Below, in pieces: positions 4,636 to 18,993 of a DNA stretch of 24,699 nt. This DNA is from a virus: positions 1-24,699 of IMG/VR virus record IMGVR_UViG_3300009441_000042; one strand, given 5' to 3'. Position 1 is the first letter of the stretch. Every line of letters starts with the position of its first letter. The notes under the pieces were generated by a model. That model did not search any database. It saw nothing but the letters and a program-made list of their open reading frames with translations, and was not told the DNA's origin. The translations under genes and the position numbers were made by a program.

Positions 4636-5921
4636 TAGGATACCTTCAAGTGAACAGCAGAGTTCTTTGTTTGTGACTTTGCAATACGAACCAAATAGTC
4701 AAGTACTTGTTGTTCCCGACCTTTGATTGCAGTAAATAGTTCCAATACCATGTACTTAGATACGTGCCACTCAAAGTCTTTCTTCTGTAGATTTGCCATG
4801 AGAGTTTCTTTACTGTCCTTCTCACTAGTCATTGAATAGTTCTTCCAGAAGTTATCATAGAACATATCGGGTTTGTTCTTCAACATCTGTTCAATGACCT
4901 TCTTTTGAGTAAGTGGTCTACCAACCGCATTCTTCATTGCATCACTGATACCACCATAGGATACCTTACCATGTTTTGCTTTCTTACCAACAATCTCACA
5001 CTGGAATGTTGGGAATGTTCTGAACTGAATCTGGAATCCACCAGACCCCAACAGGTATCCGTCCTTTGCACCATAGAAGTTCTTCTTACCAAAGGTTTGT
5101 TTGGTGAACTGAGGTGGAACAAACGGTTTACGGAAATTTACTTGTGACAACTTAGGTTTCTTCCCAATCTTCTTGAGTGATATACCCATTATATCACGAG
5201 CAGCATATGCTTTCAAGAGTTCATTGTTAAGTTCTGAGAAACTTTCTGCATCATGAATGTTGTATTTGTTTTCTGCACCACGAGCGACTGCCCATATATC
5301 TGCGGGAGTCCACTTGTTTACATTACTGAATAGTTTTTCTTCACGATTGAGTTTCTTGAATGTGTCTTCAAGTTTAGATACCCACTGTGAACCACGATGC
5401 CATGTGTACTGTTTCTTCTTCAATACCTTATGGAGAATCCTAGCACCATTGATAGACGATGCAATCCACTGGTCATCACCCAATAGAATCTCAGACATCT
5501 TTGCATCAACTTGAGTCTTTCCATATGCCCATTCAAGGTTATCAGGGGAGAAGTTTGTTTTGGGGTCTAACCATAATAATTGTGCATAGACGCATTGTGC
5601 AGATTCAGTTGCACGGGTGTTATCCGAACCACCCCCAGAACCTCTTCCACCACCAAACTCTGCGGTCTTTGAGAGTAGACCAAACGCAATCTCTGTACCA
5701 TCAATTGTCTTGAGTTTTGGTAAACCTTTTTTGTTACCTGTACGTACTGCCTTTTCAATTGCGGGGTCATACTGTAAAACAATCGAATCACCCTTAGTGG
5801 TCTCGAATGGTTCACCCGCTTTGTATTTTGTAATGAATAGGTCAGCACGATACGCCCTATCAGGACGTACTATTTCCCCAAAGGTTAAGGAAGTTTCGTT
5901 GAGTTGACTAAACTGTAGCAT
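4635..5921 (-). CDS. Possible PD-(D/E)xK-type nuclease, late-expressed, with targeting-like N-terminus
   Basis: This 428-residue protein begins MLQFSQLNETSL, with L-N-E at residues 7-9 fitting a prohead-protease site. In the middle, RATESAQCVY (E107), NKWTPADIW (about 202-210, D208) and DIMGISLKKIGKK (about 243-255, K250/K251) occur in the order and spacing expected of a restriction-endonuclease-like fold: an acid, then an aspartate next to a strand, then a small residue and lysines on the next strand. This is pattern reading, not a family match, and the catalytic residues need structural confirmation. A glycine-rich stretch lies at residues 89-98. Two TATAAATA late promoters lie just upstream (5945-5964), which fits a virion component. 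The stop shares a base with the next ATG. It could instead be a structural protein with no enzyme activity. Confidence 0.75.
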   Translation of the reverse strand: MLQFSQLNETSLTFGEIVRPDRAYRADLFITKYKAGEPFETTKGDSIVLQYDPAIEKAVRTGNKKGLPKLKTIDGTEIAFGLLSKTAEFGGGRGSGGGSDNTRATESAQCVYAQLLWLDPKTNFSPDNLEWAYGKTQVDAKMSEILLGDDQWIASSINGARILHKVLKKKQYTWHRGSQWVSKLEDTFKKLNREEKLFSNVNKWTPADIWAVARGAENKYNIHDAESFSELNNELLKAYAARDIMGISLKKIGKKPKLSQVNFRKPFVPPQFTKQTFGKKNFYGAKDGYLLGSGGFQIQFRTFPTFQCEIVGKKAKHGKVSYGGISDAMKNAVGRPLTQKKVIEQMLKNKPDMFYDNFWKNYSMTSEKDSKETLMANLQKKDFEWHVSKYMVLELFTAIKGREQQVLDYLVRIAKSQTKNSAVHLKVS

Positions 5922-5944
5922 CGATATCCCATAAGTTATAAAGT

Positions 5945-5964
5945 TATTTATAACACTATTTATA
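5945..5964 (-). promoter_or_regulatory. Tandem T4-type late promoters
   Basis: On the minus strand TATAAATA occurs twice, at 5964-5957 and 5952-5945, separated by 4 bases. This is the exact core of T4 late promoters, recognised by gp55-containing RNA polymerase. The first copy overlaps the stop of the exonuclease gene; the second lies 23 bases from the ATG at 5921, leaving room for a short leader with GGGAT before the start. They would drive the leftward run of putative capsid cargo genes late in infection. Confidence 0.75.
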
Positions 5965-6637
5965 ACAAAACTGAAGTCGAATTTTCCTCATTGTACTGTT
6001 TTATAGTATTTTTTAATGTATTAATCCAGTTATCACGGTGTTCAATAAACACTTGAGGTTCACTGTTATCAACAGAGATGATGGTAACCAATTGAGTAAT
6101 CGGCATACCTGTACGTTCTTCCCACATGACGGCATAACCCGCTTCTTGCATGAAGTAGTTCTTGACCCATTCTAGTTTCTTGGGTTTCATAGATGTCTTG
6201 TAATCGATGATGGATAGTTTACCATCAAAGATACCCACACAGTCAACACGACCCGCAACACCAAGATGATTGGAGTAGAGAGGTGCTTCTTGTGCATGGA
6301 CTTTAGTCAGACGTTCATCTAGGATAGGTTTCAACTGATTGAATGATTCAATGATATCAGGAGTATAACCTTCTTTGTAACTAGGGTCATTGTCTACATA
6401 CTTTTCACATATTTCGTGAACACGTGTACCACGACCAGACGCACGAGTAGAGACACGATTTGCCTCTTCAACACCCACACGTTTACGCCACTTCGCAATA
6501 GAATCACGAGACAGAATTGACAGTACTGTAGTAATAGATGGTAGGTTGATTCCTTCGGGTGTTTTGTATTGTCTCCCCGATTCACTTGTGACCGTATCCA
6601 TTTCAGTCAGTTCAATTTGTTCGTGTATAAAATTCAT
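5960..6637 (-). CDS. RecB/Cas4-like PD-(D/E)xK exonuclease
   Basis: All key elements of a PD-(D/E)xK exonuclease are present. Numbered from the TTG at 6649, they are GRGTRVHE (72-79), the E121 region, AGRVDCVGIFDGKLSIIDYK (132-151, with D136, D149 and K151 as catalytic residues), and QEAGY (168-172), the QxxxY motif typical of RecB and Cas4 type nucleases. The likely role is end resection or degradation of DNA in phage recombination or host takeover. A TTG start at 6649 is possible, but I prefer ATG at 6637, which follows the upstream stop by four bases and has GGA at good spacing. The protein then begins MNFIHEQIE, with I-H-E at residues 4-6, a shortened version of the targeting-like N-termini of the neighbours. 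Whether this one is packaged is doubtful, because it lies upstream of the late promoters. Confidence 0.9.
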   Translation of the reverse strand: MNFIHEQIELTEMDTVTSESGRQYKTPEGINLPSITTVLSILSRDSIAKWRKRVGVEEANRVSTRASGRGTRVHEICEKYVDNDPSYKEGYTPDIIESFNQLKPILDERLTKVHAQEAPLYSNHLGVAGRVDCVGIFDGKLSIIDYKTSMKPKKLEWVKNYFMQEAGYAVMWEERTGMPITQLVTIISVDNSEPQVFIEHRDNWINTLKNTIKQYNEENSTSVLL

Positions 6638-6641
6638 ATTA

Positions 6642-7070
6642 TTATCCAATTTGTATTATTAAGTTTATTAAGTTTCTTACCAGTAGTAGTAGACCAACAC
6701 TATTAACAACAATCAATGCACGGTCTTTCCACAATATCGAAACCCATAACCAGAGTATAACACCTCCGATACTAATTGTCAAGTCATATAACTGCAATCC
6801 TTCGATACCACGCATTGACATACCCATGAGTAACATTGAAGATGCAACCCATTTGACATACCAGTCTAGTGTTTGTTTTGGTGTTGCAGATTTGAACCAT
6901 CGATTACTATAAGTCAATTCCTCTACAGTCGGTACTGATTCAATCTTTTCTGTTATTTTTATATTTGACTCATCAATACTTGCATTCACAAACTCTGATT
7001 TGTAGGTCTTATGTGCTTCCTTCATCATTGCTTCGATTTTGTCAGCTTGGTCTTTTGATTTATTCGCCAC
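6642..7070 (-). CDS. Integral membrane protein of unknown function
   Basis: The 142-residue protein has a charged, soluble N-terminal half (about residues 1-70) and then three hydrophobic segments: roughly 71-89 (WYVKWVASSMLLMGMSM), 95-114 and 119-139. Short polar loops between them include a DR pair. I expect an inner-membrane protein with the N-terminal part in the cytoplasm, but recognise no family. Translation starts at GTG (7070), preceded by GGAGAAAG at good spacing, inside the end of the upstream metalloprotease-like gene. It ends four bases before the preferred start of the exonuclease gene, so the three are one transcript. Confidence 0.8.
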   Translation of the reverse strand: MANKSKDQADKIEAMMKEAHKTYKSEFVNASIDESNIKITEKIESVPTVEELTYSNRWFKSATPKQTLDWYVKWVASSMLLMGMSMRGIEGLQLYDLTISIGGVILWLWVSILWKDRALIVVNSVGLLLLVRNLINLIIQIG

Positions 7071-7650
7071 GTACTTTCTCCATTCGTCTTACTGACGCAA
7101 CCCAGTTCTCGTAACTCATTGGTTTACGAGGTTCACCGCAGGCCAGTTTCTTTTTCTTAAATTCTTCCTTGAGAATCTTCTTCTCTTTTGCACCCATAAA
7201 TGCACCAACCAGACTCAGGACGCATTGACGGAACGAACGTCCGTGGTGCATATGTCCGAGACAGTGTGCAAGTTCATGTAACAGTACATACTTGTTCATC
7301 CCAGTAGTAGGACAAAGTGTAACGGTAGTACCGTTAGTGTATCCAGACATTGTCTTACTTCTACGTGACATACCAACTACTTGGGGTTGACCACTAAAGA
7401 TTTTACCAACATCTTCTTCGACAGATTTCTTCCACAATTTAATCCACGTCTTACTCTTGTAGAGTTTATTTGCGAAATTCTGTGCATCTGTGAGGTTTTT
7501 GAAATCAGGAATCTCTGCACGAGATTGGAATGCCCACTCTGATTTGTAGGTCTTTAGTCTCTCAGTATCACGAGAATACTTCGCACCACGATTCTGTTTT
7601 GCCTTGTGTTTCAACAAGTAGGTTTCGTAACGCATTTTCAATTGTTCCAT
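7060..7650 (-). CDS. Zinc metallopeptidase-like protein with HExxHxxGxxH
   Basis: The 196-residue protein contains HELAHCLGHMH at residues 125-135, an exact HExxHxxGxxH zinc-binding signature with three histidine ligands and the metzincin glycine. An HHGRSFR segment follows, of the kind seen in small bacterial and phage metalloprotein families. The N-terminal 80 residues are basic and helical. No signal peptide is visible, so it should act in the cytoplasm or in the virion. The ATG at 7650 is chosen over an upstream in-frame start at 7671 because it has GGGAG at correct spacing and shares a base with the stop of the gene before it (TAATG). It follows a second, different HExxH protein in the same operon. 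The substrate is unknown. Confidence 0.85.
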   Translation of the reverse strand: MEQLKMRYETYLLKHKAKQNRGAKYSRDTERLKTYKSEWAFQSRAEIPDFKNLTDAQNFANKLYKSKTWIKLWKKSVEEDVGKIFSGQPQVVGMSRRSKTMSGYTNGTTVTLCPTTGMNKYVLLHELAHCLGHMHHGRSFRQCVLSLVGAFMGAKEKKILKEEFKKKKLACGEPRKPMSYENWVASVRRMEKVRGE

Positions 7651-8117
7651 TATATAACTCCCTTTTCCCAAATTTCTTCACAGAGAGTTTCTTGCATCTT
7701 GAATGCTTCCTTCTCCCAAGGTTGACGGGCATATGCAGTACCGTAACCATACACAGTTCTTTTCCAACGAATCTTACGACTCTGTGCTTTCTTGTCGTAG
7801 TAGTCAACCATCTCTTTACGTGCATACTGTTTGACGTGAACCATCTCGTGACAAACACAAGTGATTAAGTTTTTGAGACTCAGATTCTTTTCAACCTCAA
7901 GGTCAAACAATCGGTCATCTTGTTGCATACACCAACCTTCAACACCCTCAGACTTCAGACTCTTCAGAGTAATCAGGACTTCGAGTTTACGCATCCTTGG
8001 CATCATTTTAGCAACACAGTAATCTGCAACCTTTTGAACTATTTCACGTTGGTATTTGTTACCACCAACGATTCCAACGAAGACTTCTTCTGGTTGAACA
8101 TAGTTTCCCATCGCCAT
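7650..8117 (-). CDS. Zinc metallopeptidase-like protein (HEMVH), SprT-like class
   Basis: This 155-residue protein has HEMVH at residues 90-94 within a helix (ITCVCHEMVHVKQ) and a downstream PWEKEAF (about 133-139) whose glutamate could be the third metal ligand, as in gluzincin or SprT-type arrangements. It has no signal peptide. I chose ATG at 8117, because AAAAGGAA lies 6-7 bases upstream; the ATG at 8123 would have no gap to that site. It is the first gene behind a near-perfect sigma70 promoter at 8148-8176 and is coupled to the next metalloprotein gene by TAATG. Similar small proteins occur in T4-like marine phages. Early host-protein turnover is one possible role, but this is only inference. 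Confidence 0.85.
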   Translation of the reverse strand: MAMGNYVQPEEVFVGIVGGNKYQREIVQKVADYCVAKMMPRMRKLEVLITLKSLKSEGVEGWCMQQDDRLFDLEVEKNLSLKNLITCVCHEMVHVKQYARKEMVDYYDKKAQSRKIRWKRTVYGYGTAYARQPWEKEAFKMQETLCEEIWEKGVI

Positions 8118-8147
8118 AATCATTTCCTTTTCTCAGTTTACATGTAC

Positions 8148-8176
8148 ATTATACCAAACTGAACAGGGTTTGTCAA
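8148..8176 (-). promoter_or_regulatory. Sigma70-type early promoter P1
   Basis: On the minus strand, TTGACA (8176-8171), a 17-bp spacer (AACCCTGTTCAGTTTGG) and TATAAT (8153-8148) form a perfect consensus promoter. The predicted start near 8141 gives a leader of about 24 bases before the ATG at 8117. The AACCCTG part of the spacer is shared with P3. Confidence 0.9.
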
Positions 8177-8193
8177 CTTATTTTGAAAATAAG
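8177..8193. promoter_or_regulatory. Palindrome abutting the -35 box of P1
   Basis: CTTATTTTGAAAATAAG is a perfect 8-bp inverted repeat around one central base. It touches the -35 hexamer of P1 with no gap and lies between that promoter and the stop of the ATP-grasp gene (8198). A one-mismatch copy sits at 12721-12737 next to P4. It may be an operator, an A/T-rich UP element, or a weak hairpin ending the upstream transcript. Confidence 0.6.
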
Positions 8194-8197
8194 ATTC

Positions 8198-9364
8198 CTA
8201 TAGAAAACAATGACTTACAGAATATTTGGAATTATTTTCAATTTCATCGATGAAATCTTGGGGTATTTCACGGTCAATGATGATAATTCCGATACATCCT
8301 GTAGGTGACCTGTCTCTAAACTGACGGGATAGTCTATGTTTCCCTGCAATGATGTCTAATCCACAGGGGATATTGACCCCATACTTCTCATGTAAATGAA
8401 AGGGATATGGGACATCTTGAGATTCTGGTTGTACAATCACTTTCTGAACTTCACCATATGAGTCCCCGATTATCTCAGGTTTCCCATGCATTGATTCCAA
8501 CCATTCGTCCCCAGTAATGAAGTAGGGCATACTGTTTGACTGTTCTGGTCTGACGTTTATCTCACAGAAGTACCACTCGTCATCCTTGATAAGACCAGTA
8601 ATCTGACCAATATAGTCACCACCCAGTGTCACCACCCAGTCCAGAATAGTCTTCGCATTCTCTAGTGTCATGTCACGATGTTTGTCAGACAGTTTGTCGT
8701 ATCCCGCAAAACGAGTCCAGTGAGTAAACCCACCCGCCATCTTTGCAGTGTCTTCACCCATCACTTGTTGATGATGGTAGATAGACCACTTACCACCAGA
8801 GACTACAAACTCGACATTAGTCTCAATGTTATCCGAGATGTATTCCTCAATATAGTAATCTGGTTGATTGTTGATAACCCACTGACGATGCTTTTCGGTA
8901 AGAACAATTGATGCACTGTCGCCAGCTACACCACTTGTCTCTATTGGTTTAACAACACAAGGTATTTGAAGTTCGGATAGTAACTTTGGAAGTTTAACTC
9001 CGAGTTTTTCGATGTGTCCTCTAGTCCAGTGTTTGCGACATTCTAACCATGCAGACTCTTCACTGAGTCCAATATAGTCTAGTTCCCGTCTCCATTTTGG
9101 TGGGACAGGGTACATAGGCCAAGAATTGATAATAGTATCGATACCATTATCTTCTACAAATTTACGTGCAACACTTTCACGTTCGGTAACATCGGGGTTA
9201 TCTAGTAAAGTGATACCCAGTGATTTGTAATATTCTTTTGGGACTCTATGGGGGTGCTTAGGCATACCGTTGGTCACAAAGACTTTGTGTCCAGACTCAG
9301 CTAGTATTCTAAGATTGTGGAAATTGCATAGACCGTAATCTATGCATAGAATCCTACGTTTCAT
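8198..9364 (-). CDS. ATP-grasp enzyme, distantly PurD-like
   Basis: The 388-residue protein has the order expected of an ATP-grasp ligase. An N-terminal nucleotide-fold domain begins RRILCIDYGLCNFHNLRIL. The ATP-grasp part has PCVVKPIETSGVAGDSASIV (about 134-153, nucleotide-binding strand and flexible loop), YYIEEYISDNIETNVEFVV (strand with acidic residues), and a metal-binding end, WYFCEINVRPEQSN, with the E and N of the ExN motif. The layout resembles phosphoribosylamine-glycine ligase (PurD) or carboxylate-amine ligases, but similarity is too low by eye to name the substrate. It could act in purine synthesis or make a small peptide or amide. It is coupled to the gene before it by TAATG. 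No core T4 gene does this, so it is an accessory gene. Confidence 0.8.
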   Translation of the reverse strand: MKRRILCIDYGLCNFHNLRILAESGHKVFVTNGMPKHPHRVPKEYYKSLGITLLDNPDVTERESVARKFVEDNGIDTIINSWPMYPVPPKWRRELDYIGLSEESAWLECRKHWTRGHIEKLGVKLPKLLSELQIPCVVKPIETSGVAGDSASIVLTEKHRQWVINNQPDYYIEEYISDNIETNVEFVVSGGKWSIYHHQQVMGEDTAKMAGGFTHWTRFAGYDKLSDKHRDMTLENAKTILDWVVTLGGDYIGQITGLIKDDEWYFCEINVRPEQSNSMPYFITGDEWLESMHGKPEIIGDSYGEVQKVIVQPESQDVPYPFHLHEKYGVNIPCGLDIIAGKHRLSRQFRDRSPTGCIGIIIIDREIPQDFIDEIENNSKYSVSHCFL

Positions 9365-12767: not shown

Positions 12768-13286
12768 TTAGAACTTTTTCTTATAAGAGAAGAAAGTGAG
12801 AACCTTACGGTCTATACCACCGAAGTGGGGATTGTGGGGAGTGTATGCATCAAAGGTTATCAGACGATTGGGTTTCCAGTCAACATACTGGTCACCTACT
12901 GTAGTACCTAGTCCTATATCACCGTGGTCTAGGTATAAGACACCAGAAAAATCGAATCGTGCATCGATATGTTGTGGGGGAGATGGTTCGTATTCTGGGA
13001 AGTTTTCTAGGGGGTGATTGAAGAATTCAAGTCTACTGACCTTGCAATCAAATGCATCGTTTATCTTCTCAGTAACATTGTCCAGATACTCTACCAGATT
13101 GTCACTACGTTTACAGTTTTGCCATCCCCTCCAATTAAAGTTAATCTTGGGGTTTGGGTCTTTACTATCACCGTATTTGTCTGCATACTCTTCTGCACTA
13201 TGAAAGTGAATAGAGTCTGAGAGTTCTTGGACTTCTGAGTATTCTTCGGGGGACAGGAAGTTATCTATCCATTGTAAAGATATCAA
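12768..13286 (-). CDS. 2OG-Fe(II) oxygenase-like protein
   Basis: This 172-residue protein has the double-stranded beta-helix residue pattern of 2-oxoglutarate/Fe(II) oxygenases: QHIDAR (H106, D108), a distal histidine in YTPHNPHFGG (H151 or H154), and R160 in DRKVLTFF for 2OG. Many T4-like marine phages carry several such genes; the substrate (protein, nucleic acid or small molecule) is not known. The start is TTG at 13286, backed by an almost ideal Shine-Dalgarno (AAGGAGGAG) that sits inside the last codons of the cyclase gene, so the two reading frames overlap by 26 bases and are probably translated together. It is the last gene of the late operon. No in-frame ATG gives the full N-terminus. 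Confidence 0.82.
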   Translation of the reverse strand: MISLQWIDNFLSPEEYSEVQELSDSIHFHSAEEYADKYGDSKDPNPKINFNWRGWQNCKRSDNLVEYLDNVTEKINDAFDCKVSRLEFFNHPLENFPEYEPSPPQHIDARFDFSGVLYLDHGDIGLGTTVGDQYVDWKPNRLITFDAYTPHNPHFGGIDRKVLTFFSYKKKF

Positions 13287-15081
13287 TCATCTCCTCCTTA
13301 CCCTTCACTTTAATCTGACCTATTGGTCTCGAATTAATAGTGGTGAGTTTTTCCATTGTGAAACGAGAGTAGATGGTCTTGTATTCAAGGTAGTCTCCTC
13401 TTGCGGCAGTTGATTCAAGTCTTGCGGCAAGGTTGACGGAGTCTCCAATGACTGAATAGTCAAACCTAGACTCACTGCCCATATTACCAACAATGCAAGT
13501 CCCAGTATTGATACCAGTTCCAACGTTGATGGGGGGTAAGCCCTGCTCTTGATATTTTCTTCGAAGTTCATTTGTTTTATCTTCTATTTCTATTGCAGAT
13601 TTAACTGCCATCTCTGCATGATTGTCGCACGGTAAGGGTGCGTTCCAGAATGCCATAATACAATCGCCCATATATTTGTCGATAGTACCACCGTTATTTA
13701 GTATAATATTAGTCATCTCATTCAAATAATTGTTAATAAGTGCGACCAATCCTTCTGCATCGTCCTTGTTTTTATAATGCTCGCTTATGGGGGTGAATCC
13801 ACATATGTCCATGAATAGGAACGTCATCTCTTTTCTCTCACCACCCAACTTCATGAGACTAGGGTCTTTTGCCAACATGTCCACCATGTCGGGTGAAAGG
13901 TATGTACCGAACTGTCCCTTAATCATCTGTTTCTGTTTGAACTGAGTGTAGAACTGGACGAACGAACCGTGTGCAAATACTACCACAATGGTCACTATAG
14001 GAAATACTGGGTCAAACAATAAGAAGTGTGTTCTGAATGTATCTACCGCAAAGTAATATGTTCCCATGAGTATGACACCAAACGTCATACCAGATACAGT
14101 AATCGGGGACATGGTTAAGAATGCAAGAAGTATGACAGAAAGTATGACAGTTCCAAGAATCTCGTAGACCATATACTCGGACTGTCGTTTTAAAACTACA
14201 CCATCAATCATTGTCTTGACTAAGTTTGCTTGAATGTCATGGGGATACATAGAACCCATTGGAGTGGATACTACATTCGAACCTTCGAAAGTCGCACCTA
14301 CGATGATTATTGAACCTTCTGGTATACTTGCAAGGTCTGTAAACGAGTATCTCTTGAACTCATTCCAGTATGCGATTGTAACGTTACCCTCTACATCTGT
14401 AGTAATTGGTTTGAACTGTGGTATACGAACAAACTGAATACCATAGTCATCCGTGGATATCTGATAAGATGAATCCCCTGCGGCAACTCTGAGTACATCT
14501 AATGCAAGTGCGGGATATAGTCTACCATCAAAATTCTCTAGTAGTGGTTGTCTTCTGACAATACCATCAATATCCTGTGCAGATGATATCGTACCATAAC
14601 CAAATGCATTGTCATGGATGACTGGTTGTGCAAACAACATGCCTGGCAATTCTGGTCGGAAGTCTTCTGCGTCCTTATCACCAAATGTTGCAGTACCGAT
14701 ACGGGGTGGACGATAGTCTGTGTTGGTTCTGTTGGATGGTGTGATTGCAACAAGTGCTTGTTTCCATGATAAGATGTCTGCAAAGTATTCATCTCCACCC
14801 ATTCTATCTTCTTCGGAAAACAAGATATTAAATGCAATGATACTACCCTCAACCTTGTCAACCTCATTCCCCATTACTTTACGGGGGATTGGGTACTGTC
14901 CGAATTTGTCTAGGGTCTTCTCATCTATATCTACCAGTACAATTTGTTCTGATACGGACACGGGTTGTGTCCTCTGCATAGAATCAAAAAAAGAGAGTCT
15001 TGCACTCTCTAATAAGAAGGGGTCTAATAATCTTAATGTCACCATGACAATAAGGGTGACTAGTACGTGCCATGTTTTCAT
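13261..15081 (-). CDS. CHASE2-domain class III adenylate cyclase, membrane bound
   Basis: An N-terminal membrane helix (about residues 6-22) leads into a CHASE2 sensor (about 35-295; hallmarks IVLVDIDEKTL, GSIIAFNILF, DIDGIVRRQPL, GSIIIVGATF and the final MYPHDIQAN). Three membrane helices follow (about 303-324, 328-346, 355-376), then a class III cyclase domain (about 415-606). The catalytic set is complete: metal-binding D425 (FMDICGFT) and D473 (DKYMGDC), adenine-selecting K469 and D547, and N550 and R554 (VIGDSVNLAARLES) for the transition state. CHASE2 faces the periplasm, so an external signal would set cAMP output inside. It lies 13 bp after the FecR gene. A late promoter at 15087-15094 sits 5 bases before the ATG. 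I know this two-gene pairing from bacteria; in a phage it is unusual. Confidence 0.95.
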   Translation of the reverse strand: MKTWHVLVTLIVMVTLRLLDPFLLESARLSFFDSMQRTQPVSVSEQIVLVDIDEKTLDKFGQYPIPRKVMGNEVDKVEGSIIAFNILFSEEDRMGGDEYFADILSWKQALVAITPSNRTNTDYRPPRIGTATFGDKDAEDFRPELPGMLFAQPVIHDNAFGYGTISSAQDIDGIVRRQPLLENFDGRLYPALALDVLRVAAGDSSYQISTDDYGIQFVRIPQFKPITTDVEGNVTIAYWNEFKRYSFTDLASIPEGSIIIVGATFEGSNVVSTPMGSMYPHDIQANLVKTMIDGVVLKRQSEYMVYEILGTVILSVILLAFLTMSPITVSGMTFGVILMGTYYFAVDTFRTHFLLFDPVFPIVTIVVVFAHGSFVQFYTQFKQKQMIKGQFGTYLSPDMVDMLAKDPSLMKLGGERKEMTFLFMDICGFTPISEHYKNKDDAEGLVALINNYLNEMTNIILNNGGTIDKYMGDCIMAFWNAPLPCDNHAEMAVKSAIEIEDKTNELRRKYQEQGLPPINVGTGINTGTCIVGNMGSESRFDYSVIGDSVNLAARLESTAARGDYLEYKTIYSRFTMEKLTTINSRPIGQIKVKGKEEMIDIFTMDR

Positions 15082-15086
15082 GGTAT

Positions 15087-15094
15087 TATTTATA
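15087..15094 (-). promoter_or_regulatory. T4-type late promoter before the cyclase gene
   Basis: Minus-strand TATAAATA directly follows the TGA of the FecR gene and lies 5 bases before the cyclase ATG (15081). In T4 late promoters this octamer spans about -13 to -6, so RNA would start at the A of the ATG and have no leader. Confidence 0.7.
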
Positions 15095-16219
15095 TCATTG
15101 TTTAATTATGATTTCTGACTCTACACCATTAACACGTATGGGGTCAAGTTCTTTACCGTCTTGTTCGATTGATATATTGGTTAATGCATTCTTATCTACG
15201 GTTATTACTGCAATATCATTTACTGTTCTATTGAAGGTTACCTTGTCTCCTTCTATAACTGTCGCAACCTGTGTGACTGTATCAAATCCTTCTTCAGTAC
15301 CCTGTAGATTTATCTCACCTGAACTCTGTCTCTCTTCAAGAACTTCTTCTCCCAGACTATCAAAGTTGTCTAACATGTCTTCGAGTAGGTCAACGTCCAG
15401 ATAATTAATATCCAATTCTGTAAACTCTAAGAGGTCTTCTTCTAACTCGGCAGATTCTAACATGTCTTCGTCAAGAAAGTCTATGTCTAAAGGATTGAGG
15501 TTCTTGACCGCATTTACATTTGCCATGAACTCTTCTTGTGTCTGTATTGTCTTGGGTGGGTTGATAATCATAATGTTATTCAACATATCCAAGGTCAAAT
15601 CTAATATTGCGGGTGCGGATGGGGCGGTTTCTGCAACTGTTGTGGTGGTGGATTCGAATGGTTTATTGAGTACCACTTCACCTGTCATTGTTGAAACAAT
15701 AATCTCACCCGAAGAAATACCGTTCACGTCTGGTAAAAGTACCACAAGAGTTTTCCCGAATTCATCAACGGTTACTGTGAAATCTGTACCCCTGATACCA
15801 ATAGATGCGGTAGGGGTTTTGAGTCGGATGTTTTCTTTATCAACTTTACCCAAACCACCAGATATGAATCTAGCAGTTCCTTGGGCGAACGTCATCGCCA
15901 AGTCAGATTTGCTTGGGTCATCATCAAACACTACATTGTCAATCACAATCCGTGTGTGTTCGGTCATCCTTAATTTTGAATCATCTTGAAAACGAACCTG
16001 AAGGCGACCTTCGCCAGTGCGGAGGTCATCCTTCGAGATTACATCTTGTCCTTGGTTTGGTTCAATCTTATCCAAATCACGGATAATCTGTCTCCAACCA
16101 ACTGCCTTATCGACAGCACCTACATCTTCGGAATTAGTTTCCGCATGTAGTTGTGAGACCACCGTCAGACTGAGTAATACATATAGTAGCATCAGTCGTG
16201 CTTGTTCCTGAACCATCAT
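15095..16219 (-). CDS. Secreted FecR-domain protein with acidic C-terminal region
   Basis: The signal peptide spans roughly residues 1-26 (LMLLYVLLSLTVVSQLHA, cut before ETNSED). A FecR domain follows (about 50-165): EGRLQVRFQDDSKLRMTEHT, then ARFISGG, then RLKTPTASIGIRGTDFTV, all typical of the family. This protein has no anti-sigma part, so it is a stand-alone periplasmic or surface FecR protein rather than a TonB-linked regulator. Residues about 245-300 are a leucine-rich acidic repeat (units like DFLDEDMLE, DINYLDVDLLE). The start has GGAG at good spacing and overlaps the end of the curlin-like gene by 86 bases. FecR proteins next to CHASE2 cyclases occur in bacteria, so the two probably work as a pair, for instance by binding a ligand for the sensor domain. 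Confidence 0.92.
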   Translation of the reverse strand: MMVQEQARLMLLYVLLSLTVVSQLHAETNSEDVGAVDKAVGWRQIIRDLDKIEPNQGQDVISKDDLRTGEGRLQVRFQDDSKLRMTEHTRIVIDNVVFDDDPSKSDLAMTFAQGTARFISGGLGKVDKENIRLKTPTASIGIRGTDFTVTVDEFGKTLVVLLPDVNGISSGEIIVSTMTGEVVLNKPFESTTTTVAETAPSAPAILDLTLDMLNNIMIINPPKTIQTQEEFMANVNAVKNLNPLDIDFLDEDMLESAELEEDLLEFTELDINYLDVDLLEDMLDNFDSLGEEVLEERQSSGEINLQGTEEGFDTVTQVATVIEGDKVTFNRTVNDIAVITVDKNALTNISIEQDGKELDPIRVNGVESEIIIKQ

Positions 16220-16862
16220 AGTCTATCTCCAATGAATCTGACTGTAAAGTAGATTCTTGGTTCACTTTGATGTCCCAATAATTACCAGTACCCGTCAGAA
16301 CAAAATTGTGTCCGTCATATCCACTTGCATTATATAACAAGCTAGAGTTATCGGAAACAACATCCATGTTAAAAGTCAAGCTTGAAGCATCAATATTGAT
16401 ATCTCCAGTATTGAAATCACCGTCTAATACGAAGTCAAAATCAACATCGTTAGCAGTATCCAATGAACCAAAATCAAAGTCTAAGTCATTATTACCACCA
16501 GTTATATCAACTAAGTAATTACCATTTGTTGCACCAAAGGAGTTATCCTTATCCACATCAAACAATAAGTCGTTCGAAGAACCATTGATATCGATGTCTA
16601 CTGTCGAAGTACCAATAATAGACCCGATAAGGTTATTACTGCCACCAGATAAGTTGACGTTGAAATCCATGTCCGCACCATCGATGAGGAACTTAGTTGT
16701 GCCAGTTGTTGCACCAGCAAGTTTGTTACCACTTCCATCTTGTATAATTTCTACAGTCGCACCATTTCCTACTTGGTCAATGTAAATTTCATTGTCTGCA
16801 TACACGTACACAGTACTAATTACGAACATCATAGACCCAATAATTTTTGTCTTAACGTTCAT
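16134..16862 (-). CDS. Curlin-like secreted fibre protein
   Basis: A signal peptide (about residues 1-22, ending VYVYA) is followed by a chain rich in N, D, G, S and T with alternating hydrophobic residues. The first mature repeat, IDQVGNGATVEIIQDGSGNK, keeps the Q-x-G-N and Q-x-G spacing of curlin repeats. Later units (GGSNNLIGSIIG, DINGSSNDLLFDV, DITGGNNDLDFDF) replace glutamine by aspartate but keep the N-D/N-L rhythm. This predicts a beta-solenoid or amyloid-forming strand-turn stack. Two cysteines lie near the C-terminus (ICITQSDGGLTTTCGN). The gene follows csgG with an 11-bp overlap and a strong binding site (TGGAGAA), as expected for a substrate of that export pore. It might be a fibre subunit or nucleator (CsgB role); I cannot tell which. 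Confidence 0.85.
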   Translation of the reverse strand: MNVKTKIIGSMMFVISTVYVYADNEIYIDQVGNGATVEIIQDGSGNKLAGATTGTTKFLIDGADMDFNVNLSGGSNNLIGSIIGTSTVDIDINGSSNDLLFDVDKDNSFGATNGNYLVDITGGNNDLDFDFGSLDTANDVDFDFVLDGDFNTGDINIDASSLTFNMDVVSDNSSLLYNASGYDGHNFVLTGTGNYWDIKVNQESTLQSDSLEIDYDGSGTSTTDATICITQSDGGLTTTCGN

Positions 16863-17673
16863 TCTTTTCTCCAGTTAATGTCCAAAAACCACTTTGAGCT
16901 CCCCTCAAAATTAGTTCTAGGACTCCTTGTTCAATCGCCCGTTGAGTAGCAATTGACACACTTTCGTTTGAAGTAACTCCACTTTCTATTTCTACAAGTT
17001 GAGTACCCTGTTCTATAAATTTAAACACGTCTCCACTGTAACCAGTAGATAGTATGGTTTTACTTGTTATAACATCAAGTATCACCTCACCCGTAGCGAC
17101 AGAAACTAATCGTATATTCACCGTAACGGTGTCTACACTAAATTCACGAGAACCACCAATGCCTAATGTTCTAGCACCTTGACCTCCCGTGTCTATAGAA
17201 GAATCATACCCTACTATACCCCCTGCAATTATCATGCCAGCAAAAGTAAGCGCTGGCAGTTTTTGGGAGTCTGCACCCTCATATGTGGTTCGGGTTTGAC
17301 GTATTAACTGTCGTTCCCTCGTCACATGGTCGAGAATTTGACGGTCAACAACACGGAAAAATTCTCCGTTACTTGCACGTTTCAATGCTCTAATAAGATA
17401 CACTGAAGGTGCTTGTGTGACCGCTGAACTGAACGATGTTCCACCGCTACTGTTCTGTCTTTTTTGTCCCGTTTGGTCTGTAAACTGATACACAGCTACA
17501 GTCGGTTTCCTTACTGGTTTAGATACATCAATCAACCCTTGTTGCAATAATGTGAACTGAACCTGTGGTTCTTCTTGTGTTGGCATCTCAAAATTCTTAC
17601 CACCTAAAGTCGAACAACTAGATACCAAAATCACCAAGGGGAATAGTAATAGTCGTGACATTGCCATTCTCAT
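16852..17673 (-). CDS. csgG: CsgG-like curli export pore lipoprotein
   Basis: A lipoprotein signal with lipobox LVSSC (C20) is followed by a CsgG domain close to full length (273 residues against 277 in E. coli). Strong matches are VAVYQFTDQTGQ (about 59-70), FSSAVTQA (81-88), DHVTRERQLIRQ, GGIVGYDS, GGQGARTLGIGG, VTVNIRLVSVATGEVI, SKTILSTG and SGVTSNESVS. In E. coli CsgG forms a nine-subunit outer-membrane channel for curli subunits. The constriction loop differs: E. coli has Y51, N55 and F56, while here the loop is two residues longer and Gly/Ser-rich (SSGGTSF) and keeps only the phenylalanine. The C-terminus is shorter. Three ATGs (17673, 17667, 17661) are possible starts; all leave the signal intact. 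It overlaps csgF by 56 bp and lies in the late operon. Confidence 0.93.
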   Translation of the reverse strand: MRMAMSRLLLFPLVILVSSCSTLGGKNFEMPTQEEPQVQFTLLQQGLIDVSKPVRKPTVAVYQFTDQTGQKRQNSSGGTSFSSAVTQAPSVYLIRALKRASNGEFFRVVDRQILDHVTRERQLIRQTRTTYEGADSQKLPALTFAGMIIAGGIVGYDSSIDTGGQGARTLGIGGSREFSVDTVTVNIRLVSVATGEVILDVITSKTILSTGYSGDVFKFIEQGTQLVEIESGVTSNESVSIATQRAIEQGVLELILRGAQSGFWTLTGEKNER

Positions 17674-18109
17674 CTGTTATTGTTAATATTACTGTATCAC
17701 CGTCTGTAACGTATGATATCCCAGTACCCTCGATATTGAATTCACCAGTAGGACTAGGGTTCTCTCCGAACATACCGTCCACTATCTGTCTAGATAGGGT
17801 GGAGTAAATTCTACTCTCCACATTCCTGATAAATTTTGCGAGAGTTGTATTTTCTGCATCTCTCTCCAACTGTTCTTTTAAGTCTTTTATTTCTTGTTTA
17901 ATCGCATCTTTTCTGGATGTCTCTTGGTTCTCAATCGTGAGGTAATGTGAACTCTGATTGATACCACTAAACGAAGGCGATTTAAACTTATGCTCTTTTG
18001 GTGCGGCACTGACTTCAACCACCACACACAACATGAGAAGCATTGCAATGGTCAATACTGCACCATCAAACTTCTCCATCATACTCCAATTTTTAATCTT
18101 GTTTTTCAT
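17618..18109 (-). CDS. csgF: CsgF-like curli assembly factor
   Basis: A signal peptide (about residues 15-36, LTIAMLLMLCVVVEVSAA) is followed by KFKSPSFSGINQSSHYL, which matches the conserved N-terminus of mature CsgF (F-x-x-P-x-F-x-G), the part that plugs into the CsgG channel in E. coli. The C-terminal region (LSRQIVDGMFGE, then TGISYVTDGDTVILTITDE and VTTITIPLGDF) matches the CsgF beta domain. A helical insert of about 40 charged residues (KQEIKDLKEQLERDAEN) lies between and predicts a coiled coil not typical of E. coli CsgF. Starts at ATG 18109 or, with GGAG closer by, at 18079; the signal peptide fits either. It comes directly before csgG, the usual partner. Confidence 0.9.
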   Translation of the reverse strand: MKNKIKNWSMMEKFDGAVLTIAMLLMLCVVVEVSAAPKEHKFKSPSFSGINQSSHYLTIENQETSRKDAIKQEIKDLKEQLERDAENTTLAKFIRNVESRIYSTLSRQIVDGMFGENPSPTGEFNIEGTGISYVTDGDTVILTITDENGNVTTITIPLGDFGI

Positions 18110-18347
18110 CTTCTCTTTGTTTTCTCCCCATTTCTATTGCAGTGTCTAACTTCTGTTGCAATCGAATTATGTCATTATCTAACATTCTTACACGGTCTAT
18201 AAGACCGATTATTACCACGTGTGCATCATCTAACTTTACTTCTACCTGTTGTGTGATTGTTTTCCACACAAAATAGATGACGTAAAGCATCCCCAATGCG
18301 GCAACTATCGGAAAGCCGAAATCCTTTATGGCTGTAACTACATCCAT
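18093..18347 (-). CDS. Holin-like small membrane protein, copy 2
   Basis: The 84-residue protein has one N-terminal membrane helix (MDVVTAIKDFGFPIVAALGM, on to about residue 31), then a short amphipathic segment and a charged C-terminal coiled coil (RMLDNDIIRLQQKLDTAIEM). The LGFP/DFGFPI-type N-terminus and single helix plus coiled coil resemble BhlA/UviB-type holin-like proteins. Its partner 13 bp upstream has the same plan, so the two look like a duplicated pair. No good ribosome binding site precedes the ATG. It overlaps csgF. A role in lysis or membrane signalling is possible, but a membrane anchor for the curli pore cannot be excluded. Confidence 0.78.
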   Translation of the reverse strand: MDVVTAIKDFGFPIVAALGMLYVIYFVWKTITQQVEVKLDDAHVVIIGLIDRVRMLDNDIIRLQQKLDTAIEMGRKQREDEKQD

Positions 18348-18359
18348 AATGTCAACGAG

Positions 18360-18641
18360 TTAGTCCCTCCGTGCATCATTCTTTCCATCTGCTCTACTAA
18401 TCCTATTCAAGTCTGGTTTGATACCCAATACAACACACATAGTTGTATCCATACGAACCATATCATGGTTCATATTCTTGACCCGATTGTCAAGCCCTCC
18501 AACCATATTACTGATAAAATTTACTTTATCAATAACACCGTTCATTATATATTTCAACGTAAGGAACATGAAGAACCCACCCAAACACGCTGCTGCGATT
18601 GGAAAACCTAATTCGGAGACTAGTATTACTATCTCATCCAT
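18360..18641 (-). CDS. Holin-like small membrane protein, copy 1; first gene of the late operon
   Basis: This 93-residue protein begins MDEIVILVSELGFPIAAACL, with one membrane helix (about 4-33), then a charged tail containing a short heptad-like part (VGGLDNRVKNMNHDMVRMD). The N-terminal GFPI-A-A pattern is shared with the next gene, so they are probably paralogues. The ATG lies 5 bases after a TATAAATA late promoter, so the mRNA is predicted to begin at the start codon. The tail is mostly polar and ends with basic residues, typical of holin-like proteins. Neither gene has an obvious endolysin partner in this window. Confidence 0.78.
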   Translation of the reverse strand: MDEIVILVSELGFPIAAACLGGFFMFLTLKYIMNGVIDKVNFISNMVGGLDNRVKNMNHDMVRMDTTMCVVLGIKPDLNRISRADGKNDARRD

Positions 18642-18646
18642 GCCTT

Positions 18647-18654
18647 TATTTATA
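18647..18654 (-). promoter_or_regulatory. T4-type late promoter of the holin-curli operon
   Basis: Minus-strand TATAAATA, 5 bases before ATG 18641, in the 40-bp gap between the divergent genes. The only purine-rich run (AAGG) is 1 base from the ATG, too close for a normal binding site, so the transcript should be leaderless. It would drive the run down to the oxygenase-like gene. Confidence 0.72.
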
Positions 18655-18681: not shown

Positions 18682-18993
18682 ATGGATAATTTATATAGAA
18701 AATGGATTACGTTTGCGATAATGATTGTGTTTTTTTGGTCATGGCCAGTACGACTGTTCACTAAAAAGAACAACTGTTATTTCTGGACGTTAGAGAATCT
18801 TATCGTGAATGGTGGTAAGGCAGAATGGTATCCATCAAAACGATGGATTGGATATCATGTTGTTTGGATTGACAAGGACGGTCAGAAGTTTGAGTACACT
18901 ATTCCACGTATGAAGAGGGATACTCCATGGTACAAGATGTTATTCTATGATGGGAAGGTTAGACCTTTTAGAGAATTAAATAAAGACCAATAA
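18682..18993 (+). CDS. Small membrane-anchored hypothetical protein, the only plus-strand gene
   Basis: The 103-residue protein starts MDNLYRKWITFAIMIVFFWS, with a membrane helix at about residues 8-24. It continues with a soluble aromatic-rich domain (NNCYFWTLENLIVNGGKAEW, then GYHVVWIDKDGQKFEYTIPR) and a basic C-terminus. An uncleaved signal anchor seems likely, with the soluble part on the periplasmic side. I recognise no family. A longer in-frame opening to the left runs antisense through the holin-like gene and is not likely. The start has no Shine-Dalgarno, like its minus-strand neighbour. A terminator follows directly, giving a self-contained single-gene unit within otherwise leftward DNA. 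Confidence 0.75.
   Translation: MDNLYRKWITFAIMIVFFWSWPVRLFTKKNNCYFWTLENLIVNGGKAEWYPSKRWIGYHVVWIDKDGQKFEYTIPRMKRDTPWYKMLFYDGKVRPFRELNKDQ

Follow-up and report, generated by a model that had tools for sequence, protein, structure and literature searches.

A putative type VIII (curli) secretion cassette with FecR and adenylate cyclase genes behind a T4-type late promoter box in a marine phage

The window analysed here, a stretch of 24,699 bases that spans positions 1 to 24,699 of the virus record IMGVR_UViG_3300009441_000042 (GC content 0.40), carries on its minus strand an operon for two small membrane proteins (S1 and S2), the curli secretion proteins CsgF and CsgG, a curlin-repeat protein, a FecR-domain protein and a CHASE2 adenylate cyclase. 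With about even confidence, we read this operon as a type VIII (curli) secretion cassette that is carried by a phage and has an envelope sensor of its own and a late T4-type promoter, which would link cyclic AMP (cAMP) synthesis to a fibre and change the surface of the infected cell. Sequence comparisons support the gene identities, their order and linkage, the late promoter box and a predicted intact active site of the cyclase.

The window is a new member of an already published pelagiphage gene set. The genes csgF and csgG have been described in pelagimyophages (PMC7029224) and in phage Melnitz, there with the idea of a lysis pore (PMC9004378), and the complete cluster, which includes FecR, adenylate cyclase and a 'histidine kinase', was reported from pelagiphage podo- and myoviruses in 2022 (PMC9599517). 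A preliminary description of the window had recognized a late operon with a curli-type pore and fibre, and this part is supported as a curli-type secretion module of a T4-like marine phage, transcribed in one direction and with a late box at its head. It had also called two small genes holin-like and the addition of FecR and a cyclase the unusual part; the holin label is not upheld, and the novelty falls because PMC9599517 had described csgF-csgG-curlin-FecR-cyclase in pelagiphages. The late promoter, the rare bacterial copies and the conserved FecR tail appear to be new here.

RESULTS

Predicted secretion pore and fibre subunit

The CsgG profile matched Escherichia coli CsgG structures at 3e-65, and the protein has the lipobox VSSC, with Cys20 invariant in the alignment of homologues. 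For CsgF, a direct sequence search against solved structures gave no match, though the Pfam CsgF assignment is clear. An FKxPxFxG-type motif was found in all 80 phage homologues of CsgF; its counterpart in E. coli CsgF is FRNPNFGG. The motif lies within the N-terminal part, by which E. coli CsgF binds CsgG (PMC6957492). The identities proposed in the preliminary description for CsgF, CsgG, FecR and the CHASE2 cyclase were all recovered by Pfam (Table 1).

The window curlin protein alone reached only E 0.03 with Curlin_rpt, below the Pfam cut-off, so the earlier 'curlin-like' call needed testing through homologues, where it was borne out. Curlin_rpt was matched by 14 of 19 homologues (best 8.6e-6), and QxGxxN occurred in 75/75 complete fibre homologues versus 3/180 other open reading frames (ORFs) of 200-300 amino acids (aa). 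The mean number of GxxN per protein was 7.6 in the fibre homologues and 0.5 in the other ORFs of this size, and the fibre alignments show five GxxN steps with little or no variation. The AlphaFold2 model of the subunit is an all-beta repeat with a predicted local distance difference test score (pLDDT) of 80.7; Foldseek matches of this model were mainly beta-helix proteins, none of them significant. Judged from sequence, the products thus have the parts by which type VIII (curli) secretion is recognized, namely a predicted CsgG-family pore, a CsgF with the CsgG-binding motif and a curlin-repeat subunit. The E. coli csgBAC/csgDEFG system has the same CsgG pore, CsgF with an FxxPxF motif and curlin repeats, whereas the phage module is a single operon without identified CsgC, CsgD or CsgE and with FecR and the cyclase added.

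Linkage in related phages

We collected 80 related viral loci via CsgG, so that the counts show what accompanies phage CsgG and not how often phages carry the module. Among loci with enough flanking sequence, the counts were 74/74 for S and CsgF genes, 70/70 for the fibre gene, 59/59 for FecR and 42/42 for the cyclase, which was on the same strand in 39 of them. Scattering of these genes in relatives, which the preliminary description had named as evidence against its operon, was not observed. In five loci (L055, L057, L058, L061 and L081) the cyclase gene runs opposite to the rest of the module. Split frames of FecR and/or the cyclase occur in L042 (about 5413-8366) and L032 (cyclase), as real decay or assembly errors.

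Both HTVC008M (KC465899) and Melnitz (MZ577098) carry csgF-csgG-curlin-FecR-cyclase. The window has the order of the published pelagiphage type VIII secretion module (PMC9599517), that is, small protein(s), csgF, csgG, curlin, FecR, (second curlin) and cyclase. It differs from HTVC008M and Melnitz in its single fibre gene, higher GC content (0.40) and a CsgG 38-40% identical to theirs; moreover, it has a T4 late box, and none was found in HTVC008M. The Melnitz paper (PMC9004378) describes a phage without fibre genes, and the Melnitz record holds two curlin-repeat ORFs; on this comparison of sequences the published statement looks doubtful.

At least one S gene accompanies the curli genes in 74/74 phage modules, and 48 of these have two or more. 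Matches of S1 and S2 to holin PHROGs reached only E 0.012-0.014, and YvrJ was matched by 5/23 S proteins at best 0.017. Holin identity was rejected as a claim, since these matches are marginal; the S genes are linked to curli genes throughout. S and curli genes co-occur in two groups of phage loci that differ in their surroundings, and the S proteins may be a phage-specific inner-membrane addition tied to the curli module. By position they correspond to the 'histidine kinase' gene(s) that PMC9599517 places before csgF. Here these encode 84 and 93 aa with one transmembrane (TM) segment and no HATPase or HisKA Pfam match; the kinase label, rejected for the window, looks doubtful from these sequences.

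A late promoter box ahead of the operon

The window contains eight copies of the octamer TATAAATA, versus 1.43 expected. All of them lie on the minus (coding) strand, and none of 100 shuffles reached eight. As the preliminary description had it, the operon lies behind one copy, and the spacing of 5 nucleotides (nt) between box and first ATG recurs in many relatives. Start codons were corrected before the boxes were counted, which raised the count ahead of the first gene from 40/46 to 44/46 loci on the window's side (L001-L050), four of the six misses being start-codon errors. The box was ahead of the first gene in 0/32 loci of L051-L083, the majority of which have no other gene in common with the window. 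Across related loci it was never found ahead of the S2, CsgG, fibre or FecR genes, and a copy close to the start of the cyclase was seen in 13 of 66 homologues. This distribution is the pattern expected from one T4-type late promoter heading the operon, which is thus probably expressed late. Transcripts of T4 late genes begin about 6-7 nt after the box. With the box 5 nt from the ATG, late mRNAs of the operon would therefore be leaderless or nearly so. In the literature we found no infected-culture transcriptome for the module, apart from its metatranscriptome detection in PMC9599517.

The conserved late box groups the curli modules with late genes and fits a surface or release change, not early metabolism. 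Release is the subject of a rival reading, in which CsgG has lost its fibre role and is a gated or pinholin-like channel for lysis timing, with the S proteins as holins and the cyclase as timer. CsgG is the homologue of an outer-membrane lipoprotein, unlike pinholins, which act in the inner membrane. The idea was put forward for Melnitz (PMC9004378), and both the late box and the two one-TM proteins at the head of the operon would suit it. However, the fibre genes of the Melnitz record were missed there, the CsgF motif is kept in 80/80 homologues, the holin matches stand only at E about 0.01, and S and curli genes travel together in two locus sets with different surroundings. We consider a lysis-timing pore quite unlikely.

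FecR and its C-terminal tail

From its N-terminus, the FecR protein is inferred to be periplasmic. After the FecR domain follow an acidic Leu/Asp-rich linker and a C-terminal beta domain with the end EIIIKQ. In all 52 distinct intact phage FecRs the pattern [ILVF]x[ILVF]xQ stands no more than three residues from the C-terminus, versus 8/930 other ORFs of at least 100 aa; the pattern was picked after viewing the alignment, so that the weight lies on its invariance and not on the chance rate. The C-terminus of E. coli CsgB, the curli nucleator, is AIRVTQR. In Foldseek the FecR model resembled the PupR/FecR periplasmic signalling domain (6ovk and 4m0h; probability 1.00, E about 0.01).

The pairing of FecR with CHASE2 proteins is general. 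In a published Burkholderia biofilm operon (BiofilmReg, PMC5192318), a periplasmic FecR gene likewise adjoins that of a CHASE2 inner-membrane output protein, although the output there is a histidine kinase and no curli genes were found alongside. Cyclase matches also adjoin FecR genes in non-curli loci of Caulobacterales. These pairs resemble the phage module in the adjoining periplasmic FecR and cyclase genes, but their FecRs lack the strand-Gln tail and no curli genes were found alongside. The Hyphomonas cassette carrier described below belongs to the order Caulobacterales, and none of 29 further FecRs from this order has the tail, although several of them adjoin cyclase genes.

The cyclase

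Residues D425, K469, D473, N550 and R554, which are the metal-binding Asp pair, the substrate Lys and the transition-state Asn and Arg, are kept in all cyclase homologues that cover them, except Melnitz (N to S). The structures nearest to the cyclase include CyaB. By these residues the protein qualifies as a class III cyclase with a predicted intact active site. In Sinorhizobium meliloti, a CHASE2 cyclase is coupled to the outer-membrane barrel protein NsrA (PMC13001267).

Bacterial copies of the cassette

Of the 80 bacterial loci whose CsgG is closest to the phage family, three have csgF-csgG-curlin(s)-FecR-cyclase in phage order: two from Caulobacteraceae metagenome-assembled genomes (MAGs; L084 and L085) and one from Hyphomonas sp. 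TMED17 (L086), also a MAG, in which the cassette lies on a 705-kb contig. In L086 and L084, the genes checked around the cassette are metabolic. These three alphaproteobacterial cassettes are contrary to the statement of PMC9599517 that FecR and the cyclase are not within bacterial T8SS (type VIII secretion system) operons. They share the order of the five gene types with the phage modules; in contrast, they have no S genes and no coding-strand TATAAATA, their GC content is 0.51-0.53 and the C-terminus of the cyclase is longer. Two of the three FecRs have the tail, and the third has the end VFILE. Full-length FecR matches were limited to the cassette-carrier genomes in samples of 299, 385 and 199 genomes. 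In a quick tree (no bootstrap, root not tested), a branch with a Shimodaira-Hasegawa-like approximate likelihood ratio (SH-aLRT) of 99 separated the chromosomal-cassette CsgGs, on the phage side, from 43 other bacterial CsgGs.

Between L084 and L085, a 5.95-kb block from csgF to the cyclase aligned at 87% nucleotide identity with no alignment of the flanks, the sites being different, and the cassette GC is slightly below that of the flanks. A common block in different flanks is the pattern that a mobile cassette would give, and this block is apparently mobile. In the few bacteria with a chromosomal cassette, the pore, FecR and the cyclase could be studied free of phage.

CsgG matches in five further MAGs (L087, L088, L089, L092 and L147) were judged to be binned phage contigs and were not counted as bacterial operons: their GC content is 0.35-0.38, three have S genes, and L088 and L147 are short contigs. 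These phage-like contigs carry the module, and their labels (Bacteroidota, Planctomycetota, Paracoccaceae and Pelagibacter) could mislead surveys of bacterial curli.

DISCUSSION

In the mechanism that we propose, CsgG and CsgF would form an outer-membrane pore that exports the curlin-repeat subunit, and the exported subunit would build a fibre on the infected cell. FecR in the periplasm may dock with its CsgB-like C-terminal strand on curlin subunits or on CsgF and the fibre base. The CHASE2 domain of the inner-membrane cyclase would read the state of FecR, and cAMP synthesis would thereby follow fibre export or blockage of the pore. The phage would probably benefit from a late change of the infected-cell surface that keeps out other phages or makes the cell clump with new hosts. 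The more specific proposal, that FecR senses fibre export via the CsgB-like strand and controls cAMP in a host without a known cAMP receptor, and that the csgF-to-cyclase block moves between phages and chromosomes, is tentative and in our view on the unlikely side. Phages with curli modules occur widely in the ocean, and the FecR tail is one short, easily mutated sequence through which the state of a fibre might be sensed.

Several points weigh against a fibre-linked signalling cassette. The fibre is distant from E. coli CsgA in sequence, and amyloid formation is predicted only. The AlphaFold2 model of FecR is weak (pLDDT 63). When the C-terminus of FecR was compared with the fibre family by hhalign, the probability was 1.7%, no better than with CsgF and not significant; hence homology of the tail with the fibre was dropped, and the tail is kept as a motif resemblance to CsgB without a claim of common descent. 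Cultures of OM43 infected with Melnitz showed no clumping (PMC9004378). Furthermore, no CsgE, CsgC or CsgD was identified in the cluster (CsgE among the Pfam-scanned operon proteins); CsgE is an accessory component and not essential (PMC7029224).

The lack of an identified CsgE in the operon would also suit an uptake pore, proposed in PMC7029224 and PMC9599517, in which a CsgG channel left open without CsgE admits nutrients or siderophores and FecR reports iron. Against this, CsgF and the fibre are always retained and would be superfluous for a bare pore. Moreover, no genes for a FecI sigma partner or TonB receptor were found among the scanned operon proteins, and the name FecR is a domain label that implies no iron. 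We regard uptake as distinctly improbable.

A last point against the signalling cassette concerns the receivers of cAMP. A cyclic nucleotide-binding domain (PF00027, the only receiver type searched) was found in none of 15 long phage contigs, so that a phage-encoded receiver was discarded as a candidate, and it was absent from 58 of 60 SAR11-family genomes and present in two. The same 60 genomes hold only two class III cyclases, each about 3.5 kb from a csgG, and these probably belong to this module. With active-site residues kept and receivers nearly absent, the module would deliver a cAMP maker to SAR11-type hosts without a known standard receiver, and the role of cAMP becomes a sharp question. 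The cyclase might then be an ATP sink or serve extracellular cAMP release, not host cAMP signalling, in hosts of related phages that have no receiver. The kept catalytic residues, the near absence of PF00027 and the position of both SAR11-family cyclases near csgG agree with this. However, the window's own host may have a receiver, only PF00027 was searched, and genomes may be incomplete. We hold this use of the cyclase to be improbable and prefer the fibre-linked signalling cassette. A psbA-type gene (PF00124) was found in none of the 15 long related contigs, which argues against a cyanophage host.

Operon layout and neighbouring genes

The T4-like character of the window is seen in its neighbour genes, which include a replicative helicase resembling a Synechococcus phage primase-helicase and more genes common to relatives. 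From 18641 to 12768 the minus-strand ORFs follow each other, 5' to 3', as S1, S2, CsgF, CsgG, curlin-repeat protein, FecR, cyclase and a 2-oxoglutarate (2OG)-oxygenase-like ORF (Table 1). The junctions from first to last are +12, -17, -56, -11, -86, +13 and -26 nt, that is, overlaps or near-abutments, and all genes that the preliminary description had put into one same-direction operon are in place, with gaps from -86 to +13 between them.

Table 1. Features of the curli-type operon in the window
Feature	Position	Strand	Remarks
T4-type late promoter box TATAAATA	18647..18654	-	5 nt ahead of first ATG (18641)
S1, 93 aa, one TM and coiled region, conserved C-terminal ADGKxDxRxD	18360..18641	-	PHROG 18771 (unknown function) 6e-29; paralogue of S2
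S2, 84 aa, one TM and coiled region	18093..18347	-	PHROG 18771 1e-24; paralogue of S1
CsgF, predicted secreted curli assembly factor	17618..18109	-	Pfam CsgF 3.3e-17, profile 3-132/132
CsgG, predicted outer-membrane lipoprotein pore	16852..17673	-	Pfam 8.8e-47
Curlin-repeat fibre subunit, 242 aa, putative signal peptide	16134..16862	-	Curlin_rpt/QxGxxN in homologues
FecR-domain protein, putative signal peptide	15095..16219	-	Pfam FecR 3.5e-12
Second TATAAATA	15087..15094	-	5 nt ahead of cyclase ATG (15081); poorly conserved
CHASE2-TM-class III adenylate cyclase, 606 aa	13261..15081	-	Pfam CHASE2 7e-37, Guanylate_cyc 7.9e-20
2OG-Fe(II)-oxygenase-like ORF, 172 aa, overlaps cyclase 3' end	12768..13286	-	PHROG 274, 1.6e-8

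The last of these is an eighth ORF that was absent from the preliminary description. It comes after the cyclase in 17 relatives only and is probably not a core part of the module. Its label is uncertain: PHROG 274 is named 'DNA endonuclease V', but the sequence resembles phage proteins of the 2OG-Fe(II) dioxygenase type. A divergent ORF of about 103 aa (18682-18993) sits immediately upstream of the late box. It is on the plus strand, opposite to the operon and its neighbours, and has one N-terminal hydrophobic segment followed by a soluble part.

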